DNA of 34,158 nucleotides from a virus. The notes under the pieces are model-generated. The model ran no database searches. It was not told the DNA's origin and was given only the letters and a program-made list of their open reading frames with translations. This document shows, piece after piece, positions 1 through 34,158 of this stretch. The first letter of the stretch is position 1; every line of letters starts with the position of its first letter. A program made the translations under genes and the position numbers. The stretch is taken from IMG/VR virus record IMGVR_UViG_3300003323_000500, positions 1 to 34,158 of that record; one strand, written 5' to 3'.

Positions 1-71
1 CAATACACCCGGGTAATCGCTATCATAAGGGGGTTAAAACCAAATGATACATTTAGAGTATAGAATAAAAA

Positions 72-1810: not shown

Positions 1811-1852
1811 CATAGTAAAAATGTACTATGGAATTAGTACATTTTTACTATG
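1811..1852 (-). terminator. 18-bp perfect inverted repeat at the repressor stop codon
   Basis: CATAGTAAAAATGTACTA (1811-1828) and TAGTACATTTTTACTATG (1835-1852) are perfect reverse complements around a 6-base loop. The right arm contains the repressor stop codon (minus-strand TAG at 1848-1850). It may terminate or stabilise the repressor transcript, but there is no T run after it on the minus strand. An attenuator or protein-binding site is therefore equally possible. Confidence 0.6.
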
Positions 1853-2327
1853 GATGTTTCTCCACATTTTTCTGTTTGTACTCTGCCAACTGATCCCGCA
1901 ACTCGTTCATTAGCATGTCAGTTACCTTACCCACCCTTTCTAGTGCGGCGATGTTTCGTTTGAGGTCAATGATAGTATTTATGAGTACTTCTTTAGGTGC
2001 GTCTTTGTAGATCAAAAAGGGATCATTTTGATCGTTGGGTGTGCTATTAGGTGTGCGTTTAGGTGTGCTATCTTGTCGTTTCCTATCAATCTCTGATGTT
2101 CTCGAAAGGTGTGCATCCTCTAAATCTGTATAGAGCATATTTTCCAATGGAACATCGAGAAAATCGATTATTTTTCTTAATGACTCGAAGTCAGGTTCAA
2201 ATTTTCCCGACTCCCAAGTAGTTATTGTATTCTGCTTTTTCCCTACCAATTCCGCGATGTTCCCCTGACTTATCTTCTTTTCTTTCCGTAGGTACTTTAA
2301 ATTTTTCCCGAAGAGGCTTGAACTCAT
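1848..2327 (-). CDS. XRE-family phage repressor
   Basis: A 159-residue DNA-binding protein and the likely lysogeny repressor. An N-terminal Cro/C1-type helix-turn-helix (about 5-60) shows the typical order: LRKEKKISQGNIAELVG, then NTITTWESGKFEPDFESL. A Pro/Thr-rich linker (about 88-98) is encoded by three 12-bp repeats containing GGTGTGC (2038-2068). The C-terminal part is helical and probably oligomerises. No Ser/Lys peptidase domain is seen, so induction is probably not by RecA-style self-cleavage. It is divergent from the early operon, with two operator-like repeats between them. Confidence 0.85.
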   Translation of the reverse strand: MSSSLFGKNLKYLRKEKKISQGNIAELVGKKQNTITTWESGKFEPDFESLRKIIDFLDVPLENMLYTDLEDAHLSRTSEIDRKRQDSTPKRTPNSTPNDQNDPFLIYKDAPKEVLINTIIDLKRNIAALERVGKVTDMLMNELRDQLAEYKQKNVEKHP

Positions 2328-2434: not shown

Positions 2435-2653
2435 ATGAGATCGGGCAAACAGCGGGACGATTCCGCCTCGGTGGTTGCTGAAATACATCATGTCACAGCC
2501 GACTATGTTCGGAAGGTCGGAGCCGGTGAGCGCGAAAACGAGGACATCATGGCCACACTTGTAGATTATCAGGTTGGTAAAAATGCATTGATCGAGCATT
2601 TGAAGACTTTGGTACCTATTAAACCTAACCCTGCTAAATATGGTAGAGGCTAA
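2435..2653 (+). CDS. Ner-like small early regulator
   Basis: This 72-residue protein starts at ATG 2435. An in-frame TTG at 2351 lies upstream of the inferred transcription start. The segment VVAEIHHVTADYVRKVGAGE reads like a helix-turn-helix, with the second helix and wing at DYVRKV..GER. As the first gene after the early promoter, it occupies the position of Mu ner, which represses repressor and early transcription. Function is by position and motif only. It overlaps the next gene by 14 bp. Confidence 0.65.
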   Translation: MRSGKQRDDSASVVAEIHHVTADYVRKVGAGERENEDIMATLVDYQVGKNALIEHLKTLVPIKPNPAKYGRG

Positions 2654-2978: not shown

Positions 2979-3073
2979 AAGAAAGACAGTTGATCACGGC
3001 AATAGTCGGATGGTTGGCCCTATGTGTTGTAGCCGCCATAACAATATTCATTATAACTGCATTTGTACGATGA
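2975..3073 (+). CDS. 32-residue single-pass membrane microprotein
   Basis: ATG at 2975 opens a 32-codon frame ending at TGA 3071-3073. It has a charged start (MKERQ), then a continuous hydrophobic helix of about 24 residues, and ends TAFVR. Its ATG overlaps the stop of the gene before and its stop overlaps the ATG of the transposase, an ATGA at both ends. This is strong evidence that it is translated. The role is unknown; it may only carry ribosomes to the transposase start or may anchor something at the membrane. Confidence 0.6.
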   Translation: MKERQLITAIVGWLALCVVAAITIFIITAFVR

Positions 3074-5013
3074 GAGTAATAAATAATACTCTATATATAG
3101 AGTGGCGAGAAGCAATTGAGTGCGGTCTAAGTGAAAATACTTTGAAGAACGCCAAACTCCGTAAATCACCTTCGTGGTCATTTATCGATGATCCTAACGA
3201 TGGCAGGAAAGTGTTGATTGAATTTGAAAAACTAAAAGATGAGTATAAAAAGAAAATTCAAGTACGCTACGGAAATCCTTATGAGTATATGGCGAAGATG
3301 CCTATACGCAACTTGGTAAAGTGGGATGACAAAGCAGAAGAATTTTACTTGGCATATCGATACGATAGTAACAAGTCTCTTCCAATAGACCATGTAAAAA
3401 AATATACCACTGCTGCAAGCTGGCTCAATATGTTTAAAGCAGTGACCAACGATAAGAAGGCGCTAAAGAAGCTACTCAATCTTACCATAGAGCAATTCTA
3501 TGTGAATGCAATTGAGATCATAAAGAGCGATAAGGTTGATTTACCTTCAAGCTACCGCAGGCTTTTGCAGAAGCGAAACGAGTATGAAGAAAAAGGATAC
3601 TCATGCTTAATCGATTGGCGGTTCGGTAACAAGTTAGCGGCAAAGGTTAACGATGAGTTGAGCGAAAGCACGCTTCTTGAAATGCTCGCACATCCAAACC
3701 AGTACGATGATGTATTTATCGCGCAGCAGTATAATACTTGGGCGATCAAGAACAGCTATAAGCCGATTGATCCGGCAACTGTAGGTGTTCATAGACGCAA
3801 GAACGATCACTTGATCATCATGTCGAGAGAGGGCAACGCGGCTCTAAACGAAAGGTACTTAAGACAAGTAAAAGGCTTCCGACCTACTGCTCCTTTATAT
3901 ATGATTGAGAGTGATGACAACCATATTGACTTGTTATTTCTTAATCCGGATGCTGAGGATGATAGCGGTAAATATTATAACAAGTACAAAGCGATAGTTG
4001 TTATTGACAGTTTCAATGATTACGTTCTCGGTTATGCTTATGCTCAAAATTTGAGTACCGAGTTAGTTCGTGCTGCCTATGTAAGTGCGATGTACCACAT
4101 TCGCTCGATAACAGGTGCGTGGTATTTGCCTCATGAAACAAAAACTGATCGGTGGGGACTTAAAACTCTCCAACCATTCTATAGTCAAATTGGAAATTAC
4201 TTCCCGACTCCCGTTGGCTCTAAACACCGAGGCTATATTGAAAACTTTTTTGGTAGCCCTCACTGGAAGCGTTGTTTAAAGATCGGTGCTAACAACTACA
4301 CCGGTAACAACATGACCGCTAAGTATAGAGGTGTAAATACTGAGGCCCTTGAACTGAACAAAAAAGAAAGGCCGCTAATTGGTGATGAAGCTATTAAACA
4401 ACTGGAAAATTTCTTCCATCGCTTGCGCCACATGCCACAAAAGGATGGACAATCAAAGCACACAGAGTGGTTGCAAGCTTTCAATGCAATAAGCCCTGAA
4501 AATAAACGAATGATCTCCGATGAACAATTCCTGCTCAAGTTTGGAATTGAACACAATAATAACGGACAAGGAATTACCATATCCAACCGGGGTGTAGAAC
4601 CACAAATAAACAATGTGCGGTATAGCTATGACATAGATGCTCCAAGCTTACTTGAATATATAGGTAAGAAAGTGAGTATCTACTACGACCCCTTTGATAT
4701 GAGCCGTGTGCTAGTTACTGATCATCAAAAGGTACGACTAATGGCTTATGATGCCAGATTAAATAGTAGGGCGTTGGAGGATGGCAGTGCCGATAGCCGT
4801 ACATATCTCAATTATATACTCAGCGAAAAGCAAAACGATGTTGAATATATAGCAAAGCGTAGTATAAAAAGAAAAGAGGTGCTCAAAGGCATCGATGCAG
4901 AAACCTTACTGCAAGCTAATGTGATGGTTAAGGAGATCAAACAAGCTGCCGAACAACGATACCTGAATCCGGGAAGCAGCAACGAATCATTCGACATCTA
5001 CGATCAAATGTAG
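3070..5013 (+). CDS. MuA-type DDE transposase
   Basis: This 647-residue recombinase cuts and joins the phage ends to target DNA. The start is ATG 3070 (ATGA overlap with the microprotein), not the in-frame codon 60 bp upstream. The N-terminal region is Mu-type DNA-binding. The RNase H-like core has candidate catalytic residues D282 (MIESDD), D360 (TKTDRW) and E391 (GYIENFF). The D-E spacing of 31 is typical of rve/Mu transposases. The C-terminal part is a Mu-type beta-barrel followed by a basic tail. The MuB-like ATPase follows 85 bp downstream. The length is close to MuA (about 660). Confidence 0.93.
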   Translation: MRVINNTLYIEWREAIECGLSENTLKNAKLRKSPSWSFIDDPNDGRKVLIEFEKLKDEYKKKIQVRYGNPYEYMAKMPIRNLVKWDDKAEEFYLAYRYDSNKSLPIDHVKKYTTAASWLNMFKAVTNDKKALKKLLNLTIEQFYVNAIEIIKSDKVDLPSSYRRLLQKRNEYEEKGYSCLIDWRFGNKLAAKVNDELSESTLLEMLAHPNQYDDVFIAQQYNTWAIKNSYKPIDPATVGVHRRKNDHLIIMSREGNAALNERYLRQVKGFRPTAPLYMIESDDNHIDLLFLNPDAEDDSGKYYNKYKAIVVIDSFNDYVLGYAYAQNLSTELVRAAYVSAMYHIRSITGAWYLPHETKTDRWGLKTLQPFYSQIGNYFPTPVGSKHRGYIENFFGSPHWKRCLKIGANNYTGNNMTAKYRGVNTEALELNKKERPLIGDEAIKQLENFFHRLRHMPQKDGQSKHTEWLQAFNAISPENKRMISDEQFLLKFGIEHNNNGQGITISNRGVEPQINNVRYSYDIDAPSLLEYIGKKVSIYYDPFDMSRVLVTDHQKVRLMAYDARLNSRALEDGSADSRTYLNYILSEKQNDVEYIAKRSIKRKEVLKGIDAETLLQANVMVKEIKQAAEQRYLNPGSSNESFDIYDQM

Positions 5014-5022
5014 AAAGATAAA

Positions 5023-5049
5023 CCCTTGACTGCTGTAACAGATCAAGGG
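5023..5049 (+). terminator. Hairpin between transposase and MuB genes
   Basis: CCCTTGA (5023-5029) pairs with TCAAGGG (5043-5049), with an inner CTG/CAG pairing. No U run follows, so it is more likely an attenuator, processing site or mRNA-stability element than a full terminator. It could set the A:B expression ratio. Confidence 0.45.
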
Positions 5050-5077
5050 CCATTAATAAACAAATAACGAAAAACGA

Positions 5078-5093
5078 AAAACGAAACGGTACA
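5078..5093 (+). other. Internal copy of the transposase end-site 16-mer
   Basis: AAAACGAAACGGTACA is the exact reverse complement of the right-end repeat at 34086-34101 (16 of 16). It sits 5 bases before the MuB start codon and follows two further CGAAA units at a 7-bp period (5068, 5075). Its orientation is that of a left-end site. It may be an internal enhancer-like or autoregulatory binding site for the transposase. Confidence 0.65.
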
Positions 5094-5098
5094 AAATT

Positions 5099-5965
5099 AT
5101 GAACGATTCACAGAAAAAGGAAATCCAATTATTGCTCAAGCAATTCATTGAGAAGCACAGTAGTCAAGCCAAAGCAGTTAGCACATTAAAGGGCGTTAGC
5201 GAAGCAACGGTAATCAACATCCGCACAGGGCGATGGGAAAGTATCAGCGATGAGATGTGGCGGAACGTTGGTAAGCAACTTGGATTTACTAACAAAGGTA
5301 CTTGGCGGATGACTCAAACACATGACTTCAATACACTTGTTCATTTTTTTGATGACGCGCAAGAATATAGTAATGTATTCTGTGTAATCGCTTCTGCTGG
5401 CAGTGGTAAGACTTTTACATCTGAGTGGTACAAAGCAAAGAAGAACAATGTATACCACGTAGTATGTGCAGAATACTTTAATAAGAGGGTATTCCTTCAA
5501 AAGCTGCTTGAACAGATGGGTAAGGACAACACTGGATACAACGTGGCAGAAATGATGGATTACATCGTGGATACTCTGATTAAGCAAGAGACACCCCTTA
5601 TCATTATTGATGAGGTTGACAAACTTCCTGATCCATCTCTGTACTTCTTTATTACACTTTACAATCAATTGCGTGGTAAGTGCGGTATTGTCCTTCTGGC
5701 AACAGACCATTTACAGAAACGAATATTGCGAGGCAAGAAGCTCAACAAAAAGGGCTATTCCGAAATCTATAGCCGCATCGGTCGCAAGTTCATTCAGCTC
5801 AGAGGTACAGACAAAAAAGAGGTTGAGGCAATCTGTGAAGCGAACGGGTTGAGCGATCAGCAGGCGATTGCTCATATATATAATGAGTACGAAGGTGACT
5901 TACGCAGGGTTGAACGTGCAATCCACAAACACCGGGTGAGACGCAAAAAGGAAGCCGCTCAATAA
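5099..5965 (+). CDS. MuB-type AAA ATPase, target-DNA activator
   Basis: This 288-residue protein would bind target DNA, deliver it to the transposase and confer target immunity, as Mu B does. An N-terminal helix-turn-helix-like domain (about 1-65) includes SQAKAVSTLKGVSEATVINI. The ATPase core has Walker A ASAGSGKT (98-105) and Walker B LIIIDE with D171/E172, followed by a sensor-like LLATD. The basic C-terminus (VRRKKEAAQ) would suit DNA binding. It lies in the canonical place after the transposase gene, and its leader carries the internal end-site copy. Confidence 0.92.
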   Translation: MNDSQKKEIQLLLKQFIEKHSSQAKAVSTLKGVSEATVINIRTGRWESISDEMWRNVGKQLGFTNKGTWRMTQTHDFNTLVHFFDDAQEYSNVFCVIASAGSGKTFTSEWYKAKKNNVYHVVCAEYFNKRVFLQKLLEQMGKDNTGYNVAEMMDYIVDTLIKQETPLIIIDEVDKLPDPSLYFFITLYNQLRGKCGIVLLATDHLQKRILRGKKLNKKGYSEIYSRIGRKFIQLRGTDKKEVEAICEANGLSDQQAIAHIYNEYEGDLRRVERAIHKHRVRRKKEAAQ

Positions 5966-10913: not shown

Positions 10914-10940
10914 AGCTTTAAAATTCTTGACTATCGGAGC
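10884..10940 (+). repeat. 10-bp inverted repeat around the secreted-protein stop
   Basis: GCTCCGATAG (10884-10893) and CTATCGGAGC (10931-10940) are exact reverse complements, with the AT-rich palindrome TAAAGCTTTA between them. The left arm is coding. It lies just before the intrinsic terminator and may form an extended 3' RNA structure. Confidence 0.5.
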
Positions 10941-10950
10941 CAATTCCGTA

Positions 10951-10979
10951 AGCCCTCAAAGCAATTGAGGGCTTTTTTT
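10951..10979 (+). terminator. Intrinsic terminator
   Basis: AGCCCTCAA (10951-10959), a 5-nt loop, TTGAGGGCT (10965-10973), then a run of T to 10979 form a textbook Rho-independent terminator. It ends the secreted-protein transcript and probably any early read-through. Confidence 0.9.
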
Positions 10980-10994
10980 ATGTTAATATCTTTT
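10965..10994 (+). promoter_or_regulatory. Possible promoter for the small HTH-like gene
   Basis: TTG at 10965-10967 (inside the terminator stem), 19 bases, then TATCTTTT (10987-10994) is one base off TAnnTTTG. It would start near 11001, upstream of ATG 11020. Confidence 0.3.
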
Positions 10995-11019
10995 AAGGTG
11001 GTTTGAGTTTCTTTGTGAT

Positions 11020-11331
11020 ATGCGCGGTTCACAATCAATATTCAGAGACGTTTTTGAAAACAGACCTGCTCCTGAAGAGAAACGCAAAGGCCGTTCTGCT
11101 ACCCTCCACAGCCAGCGTAATGAGTGCCTGATTGCCCGATACTACTACTATGGAAAATTTACTGATAAACGTTACCTAAGCATCCTTGAAACCTTATCTT
11201 TTGAGTTCCATTTATCAACCGTAACTATACCTGAATTGATCAACGATCACATCGAACAATTATCAACTCTCAAAGCCAAGCAACCAGCAAAGAGTTACTT
11301 TGTAAAAAGATGGCCTCACCTTGTCTGGTAA
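11020..11331 (+). CDS. Small basic protein with HTH-like segment, possible late regulator
   Basis: This 103-residue protein has an N-terminal RNECLIARYYYYGKFTDKRY segment. It then has ILETLSFEFHLSTVTIPELI (about 57-76), which reads like a helix-turn-helix (helix, FHLS turn, recognition helix). It lies after the early region, where Mu carries mor and C, the middle/late activators. A role as late activator acting on the repeats at 17061-17108 is an inference. I recall similar short Bacteroidetes proteins beside Mu-like genes without known function. Its stop is inside a bidirectional terminator stem. Confidence 0.6.
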   Translation: MRGSQSIFRDVFENRPAPEEKRKGRSATLHSQRNECLIARYYYYGKFTDKRYLSILETLSFEFHLSTVTIPELINDHIEQLSTLKAKQPAKSYFVKRWPHLVW

Positions 11332-20795: not shown

Positions 20796-21188
20796 ATGAG
20801 CGAAATCGCGAAAAGATACTTTAACAACTTCCCTAACAGCAACCAGTGTCACGAATCATCTGATGGATTCCTGTTTCCTGACTTGCATCATGCCAACGCC
20901 TATGCGGCTACCTTAAGGGATAACAAGGTGAAGACACATAACCGCTCTGACTTTGAAGAAAGCACAGAAGGTCAAAAGGCAATTGATGTGCTGGTTGATG
21001 TTGTAAAGAAGTCACTCACTGATGGCAGGAATACTGAAGCTAAGGATGGAAAGGCATCCGGTAAATCAAAGCGTGTAACTGAAGACAAGACTTCTGATGC
21101 GAAAGGTGGTGAACTGAAAGCAACCGAGGCTGCGACTACTACTGAAACTGGCGCTGCTGATGTAAAACCTTTCCAATGTAAAGGATGA
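20796..21188 (+). CDS. Hypothetical protein, Ala/Lys/Thr-rich tail
   Basis: This 130-residue protein has a folded N-terminal part (about 1-50) with FNNFPNSNQCHESSDGFLFP and DLHHANAYAATL. A long, polar, apparently disordered C-terminal tail follows. It lies between lysis and tail sheath genes, where small structural or decoration proteins are common. I recall similar proteins in Bacteroidetes phages but no function. Confidence 0.65.
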   Translation: MSEIAKRYFNNFPNSNQCHESSDGFLFPDLHHANAYAATLRDNKVKTHNRSDFEESTEGQKAIDVLVDVVKKSLTDGRNTEAKDGKASGKSKRVTEDKTSDAKGGELKATEAATTTETGAADVKPFQCKG

Positions 21189-34085: not shown

Positions 34086-34123
34086 TGTACCGTTTCGTTT
34101 TAATTTGTGTACCGAATCGTTTT
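34086..34123 (+). other. Right-end transposase-binding repeats
   Basis: TGTACCGTTTCGTTTT (34086-34101) and TGTACCGAATCGTTTT (34108-34123) match at 14 of 16 positions with a 22-bp period. The 22-bp spacing equals the size of MuA end sites. An exact inverted copy lies at 5078-5093 and an 11-bp core at 138-148. The terminal CA could be 34136-34137 but was not proven. Confidence 0.7.
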
Positions 34124-34158
34124 CGCGATCTTAATCACTCAACAAGAATGGTGTTGCC

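Follow-up and report, generated by a model that had tools for sequence, protein, structure and literature searches.

The window, the whole stretch of DNA analysed here, comprises 34,158 nt (positions 1 to 34,158) of the IMG/VR virus record IMGVR_UViG_3300003323_000500. It carries a MuA-type DDE transposase gene followed by a MuB-type ATPase gene, as in Mu-like phages. The features are listed in Table 1. The transposase open reading frame was called from position 3010, and the ATG given in the table agrees with the relatives. A profile of the transposase gave no match to PDB sequences. The structure model of the full-length protein was of insufficient quality (mean pLDDT 42.9), and only that of the N-terminal domain was usable; the N-terminal 84 aa found their best PDB match in 1tns, the winged helix of Mu A (probability 0.93, but E=0.13), and a Mu-A-like N-terminal winged helix is predicted on this basis. 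A probable repressor gene (1848-2327, minus strand) was assigned by position and reading. Downstream of it, the noncoding stretch 1811-1852 contains an inverted repeat, CATAGTAAAAATGTAC...GTACATTTTTACTATG, which is among the repeated 16-mers of the window.

Table 1. Coordinates of the genes, end sites and internal site in the window
Feature	Coordinates	Strand	Basis or remark
Left terminus TAAGGGGGTT	26..35	+	Direct reading, comparison with relatives
Left-end site L1 AAAACCAAATGATACA	36..51	+	3 mismatches; same-place site in 8/8 left ends compared
Left-end site L2 AAAACGAAACGTTCAA	138..153	+	3 mismatches; AAAACGAAACGT(T/A)C-type site in 8/8 left ends compared
MuA-like DDE transposase	3070..5013	+	PHROG 310 E=2e-31, Pfam Mu-transpos_C
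Hairpin CCCTTGACTG/CAGATCAAGGG	5023..5049	+	Directly 3' of MuA stop; conserved in relatives, covariation
A-rich MuB leader	5050..5098	+	Alignment of MuA-MuB gaps
Internal end-type (R2-class) putative transposase-binding site AAAACGAAACGGTACA	5078..5093	+	MuB leader; identical to right-end R2
MuB-like AAA ATPase	5099..5965	+	PHROG 296 E=2e-54, Pfam AAA_22
Place of the relatives' central site, without site here	10914..11019	+	After last early gene, before terminator
Conserved 103-aa gene (~105 aa in relatives)	11020..11331	+	PHROG 17154, function unannotated; downstream of central position
Right-end inner site R2 AAAACGAAACGGTACA-TTTT	34086..34101	-	Exact consensus; comparison with relatives
Right-end outer site R1 AAAACGATTCGGTACA	34108..34123	-	22 bp outward of R2
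Right terminus AAG-N6 (AAGATCGCG read inwards)	34124..34132	-	AAG-N6-AAAAC at all right ends

Two of the relatives, G021 and G022, are prophages in sequenced hosts, Chryseosolibacter indicus and Chitinophaga sp. YR573, and are flanked by 5-bp target duplications (AAATA and ACTTT, respectively), because of which the terminus was placed at AAG-N6. In the window, the left flank TATCA (21-25) and the right flank AATCA (34133-34137) are alike at 4/5 positions. Arrays of transposase sites in inverse orientation are present at both termini, L1/L2 on the left and R1/R2 on the right. As read from the relatives, the left end consists of TAAGGGGGTT followed by L1, and L2 stands about 76-102 bp further in; the right end consists, inwards, of AAG-N6, R1 and, after 22 bp, R2, a spacing that is kept in G002, G003, G010, G021 and G022. 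The window, G003 and G010 agree in the location of R2 and have its exact consensus with TTTT behind it; G021 has R2 with 1 mismatch. At their inner right-end site, G002 and G423 have a final GCCATA in place of GGTACA. In G002 (IMGVR_UViG_3300035661_000111) the same replacement is seen at all three core end sites (positions 307, 39190 and 39212), making this a naturally occurring specificity variant; as L1, R1 and R2 all have GCCATA, the half-site evolves in concert.

The sequence of R2, AAAACGAAACGGTACA, recurs exactly on the plus strand at 5078-5093, which is 5.05 kb from the left terminus and ends 5 nt upstream of the MuB ATG. The preliminary description had reported this exact inverse match just before MuB, and both positions were verified. 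Its argument that sixteen identical bases are unlikely to occur twice does not hold for 16-mers in general, since under a second-order Markov model the window should contain on average about 1.25 repeated 16-mers, whatever their sequence, and 7 were observed, at 4 places; it does hold for the end-site 16-mer specifically, for which 3e-5 chance copies are expected. When the A-rich gene leaders of the family serve as the model, the expectation is 3e-6 across all window leaders. Given these two values, the match of 5078-5093 to R2 is not chance. That a copy of a right-end transposase site lies inside the genome was thus borne out, and the identity of 5078-5093 as a transposase-type site is well supported by the sequence comparison. 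Immediately outside the internal site lies aacgaaaaacga (5069-5077), which contains no AAG-N6 terminus, and none was present at the other internal sites checked, central ones included. No partner site was found near 5078 at 22 bp (right-end type) or at about 76-102 bp (left-end type) with up to 3 mismatches.

A scan for relatives with the single transposase sequence found none, and an alignment query was used instead; most of the relatives recovered are metagenome contigs, several of them truncated. The window and eight relatives, which had been identified through protein homology, form a set of nine family genomes that were searched with their ends masked. Their 281 kb contain 7 exact internal 16-mers, all on the plus strand, versus 0 for 300 permuted 16-mers, and 13 internal copies at up to 2 mismatches versus a permuted mean of 0.38. 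In 15 genomes the 11-mer AAAACGAAACG occurs at L2, R2 and internal sites only, every internal occurrence being on the plus strand; that at 20986 of G007 matches this half only. Carrying internal R2-class copies is a family habit and not private to the window. The share contributed by G007 is to be weighed with care: this genome has several copies near gene starts, three of which lie 0-2 nt before ATGs, two of them lie within the end of a predicted coding sequence where the peptide KNETV is repeated, and two pairs of copies are spaced 35-36 bp, not 22. Both ends are present in G002, G003, G010 and G022 without any internal copy of their own end site, and the internal site is therefore dispensable. 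G005, G006, G007 and G015 have no right end, and hence no R2 of their own, in the data. Among 391 genomes scanned from the order to which Chryseosolibacter belongs, only the Chryseosolibacter indicus prophage was found.

Where relatives carry an internal copy, it lies elsewhere than in the MuB leader, unlike in the window phage. The preliminary description was silent on relatives, in which the same 16-mer is internal, usually at another, syntenic place, here termed central. An exact copy lies there in G005, G006, G007/G008 and G021, in the last at position 21112 of contig C11, and one with 2 mismatches in G015. These central sites follow the last stop codon of the early operon (-2 to +17 nt relative to it) and precede a terminator-like hairpin and the conserved 105-aa gene; their distance to the left terminus is 12.1-13.8 kb where measurable. 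The TTTT tail of R2 is found at 8/9 central sites. L028, L043 and L035 show a similar central arrangement, but were found via the 16-mer itself. A search with the 105-aa protein recovered the MuA-bearing viral carriers and, in addition, L138, in which the central site is AAAACGAAACGCCCTA, ending in GCCCTA, with the same TTTTT and terminator. This site resembles the GCCATA end class, and the comparison with the ends of G002 and G423 gives a hint that central sites and end sites may co-vary. Scans for GCCNTA- and AAGGAWMA-class sites yielded one further right end (L184) and, among the matches listed, no central site beyond that of L138. The central site is absent from the window, from G003, G010 and G016, and from more distant lineages. 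The genes upstream of the central sites vary between phages while the site stays. Carriers are scattered over subclades of the MuA tree, a distribution that would fit either several losses of an ancestral site or repeated acquisition.

Two side observations concern this region. In G007 (L059; 11246-12211) and in L043, open reading frames resembling retroelement-type reverse transcriptases by eye (YADD, SQ motif) lie upstream of the central site, in the variable region. In the window, the gene at 11020-11331 stands at the early/late junction, where a late-gene activator could be expected.

The MuA-MuB gaps of 30-odd relative loci, representing about 20 lineages, were read, and the 16-mer was found before MuB in none of them. 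The MuB-leader location is private to the window phage, one genome. G002, G003, G010 and G021 keep the end repeats yet have no site before MuB, an absence which the preliminary description had itself named as counting against its proposal; a special function linked to MuB does not stand as a conserved feature, and a conserved MuB-leader control element was rejected. The hairpin behind MuA has compensatory changes in 6/8 consensus pairs and no T run behind it. It is also present in the MuA-MuB gaps of L073, L075, L077, L078, L094-L096, L100 and others, had no match in Rfam when searched in the window gap, and is possibly a coupling or attenuation element between the two genes. In the nearest relatives the hairpin is followed by an A-rich leader of about 30-35 nt. 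By alignment of the gaps the leader of the window is about 15 nt longer, an excess of approximately one 16-mer length. The gap of L074 contains a tRNA-like sequence (2463-2604, plus strand; Rfam tRNA 32.9 bits, E 2.4e-5) that is interrupted midway by some 70 nt and is not called by ARAGORN.

The reading tentatively preferred, although we hold it at somewhat less than even confidence, is that the transposase docks at 5078-5093 as at a site of the R2 class, without cleaving it, and that this docking aids synapsis of the ends. It was chosen since a fixed orientation combined with a variable distance suits such a role. The starting point is what is seen in the sequence: a site equal to R2, in a family that repeatedly holds such copies internally, always on the plus strand and in relatives mostly at the conserved end of the early operon. 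The transposase would bind 5078-5093 via its end-binding domain, and the site, having neither AAG-N6 nor a partner at 22 bp, should escape cutting. In the last and least certain step, accessory docking would load or hold the transposase on phage DNA and help to unite both ends; it would be effective over a distance and in a single orientation, like the enhancer of Mu, but through an end-type site. In the window, which has no central copy, the copy in the MuB leader may substitute. Identity with R2, the excess of internal copies, the confinement of the 11-mer to L2, R2 and internal sites, the synteny of the central sites, their TTTT tails, the hint of co-variation with the ends and the lack of AAG-N6 argue for a docking site, and the scattered carriers on the MuA tree are compatible with it. 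Against it stand the four genomes with both ends and no internal copy (G002, G003, G010 and G022), the single genome with the MuB-leader case, and the difference between the central and MuB-leader positions. A classical operator-type enhancer may exist elsewhere, because the N-terminal winged helix predicted for the transposase is Mu-A-like, and it would make an end-type enhancer unnecessary.

The constant plus orientation and the placement at gene boundaries would also fit a role at the level of transcription or RNA. Bound transposase could block or tune transcription or translation past the gene boundary, and in the window MuB and the downstream early genes would be lowered once transposase is abundant. 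We consider such an expression switch, close to one of the options raised in the preliminary description, possible but unlikely, though a serious rival. It would account for the 5 nt between the window site and the MuB ATG, for the three G007 copies directly before ATGs, for central sites close to a stop codon and ahead of a terminator, and for the sense orientation of all sites; the covarying MuA-MuB hairpin, moreover, indicates that the junction is under selection. However, no relative has the site before MuB, and downstream of the commonest, central place there is only a terminator and no early gene left to regulate. One regulatory role therefore does not fit both places.

It is rather less probable, though again a rival to be taken seriously, that the internal copies are functionless by-products, in which short end-derived sequence was copied or recombined into the variable early region at gene boundaries, where it is bound and tolerated while accessory genes change beside it. 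The MuB leader of the window, longer by about one 16-mer and otherwise normal, agrees with such an origin, as do the central sites that stay constant behind differing upstream genes and the scattered presence on the MuA tree. Yet the 16 bp are kept exactly in lineages whose MuA shares no more than about 60-70% identity with that of the window, and this, in one orientation and at one syntenic place, points to selection.

Self-protection appears improbable. Transposase at an internal site would clear nearby MuB and extend Mu-type cis-immunity into the genome, but immunity should need no fixed orientation, and the exact internal copies are all on the plus strand; furthermore, with a single site, at 5 or 12-14 kb, the greater part of the genome would stay without protection. 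In Mu itself, cis-immunity originates at the ends occupied by transposase, and it is not strong enough to account for how the interior is protected (PMC2837660).

That an A-rich leader of a Bacteroidota gene converged on the end site by chance was rejected as very improbable: tandem AACGAAA-like repeats occur in the leader, and AAAACG in 36 of about 673 family leaders, but the two expectations given above are minute, GGTACA has a probability of 1.7e-4 given AAAACGAAAC, and internal copies are in excess family-wide, with 0 for the permuted 16-mers. A second left end at 5078-5093, which the preliminary description had proposed as allowing transposition of a segment without the transposase gene, shares the orientation of the left-end sites and is otherwise scarcely credible, for AAG-N6, present at both real ends, is missing from the 9-10 bp on the outer side of the 16-mer, and no partner site stands at 22 bp; the internal copies checked, the central ones included, are therefore not second ends, and this candidate was rejected. 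Of that description as a whole, the identity of the site as a copy of R2 was upheld; a conserved role at MuB and a second left end were not.

The enhancer of phage Mu (the internal activation sequence, O1-O2) is orientation-sensitive and can act at a distance; it coincides in part with the repressor operators and does not resemble the Mu end sites. Mu relies on an operator-type enhancer plus transposase sites that are confined to the ends. To our knowledge, classic Mu carries no internal copy of an end site. The docking site proposed here resembles the Mu enhancer in being an internal, putatively cis-acting site for the transposase, and differs in that it is an exact end site at a gene boundary, 5-14 kb into the genome; at 5.05 kb, 5078-5093 does not lie at repressor operators near the left end. 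In Mu, the enhancer sits closer to the left end, and the transposase touches it through its N-terminal domain (PMC3562280); chromatin immunoprecipitation located the transposase at the ends and not at internal regions (PMC2837660). The ends of the window clade share with L1-L3 and R1-R3 of Mu the site arrays at both termini, the two close right-end sites and the 5-bp target duplication (G021, G022), whereas the internal copies, the site sequence and the spacing are different. Among Bacteroidota, Flavobacterium columnare fF4 has a Mu-like gene order (PMC7761591). Elizabethkingia TCUEAP3 and the Porphyromonas and Bacteroides Mu-like phages also have a Mu-like transposase, but the transposases of these cultured phages are only 23-26% identical to that of the window.

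A transposable phage has to place its transposase at its own ends, keep clear of wrong partners and leave its own genome intact. We regard it as an evenly balanced proposition that an internal R2 copy serves a clade of Bacteroidota Mu-like phages as a functional third cis element, either an end-type enhancer or a transposase-responsive switch, which is absent from Mu and which would normally stand at the terminus of the early operon and, in the window phage, in the MuB leader instead. If functional, an exact internal end-type site with a constant orientation and mostly the same position would solve this problem differently from Mu. The prophage of Chryseosolibacter indicus PWU20 provides a sequenced host in which such a site is testable.
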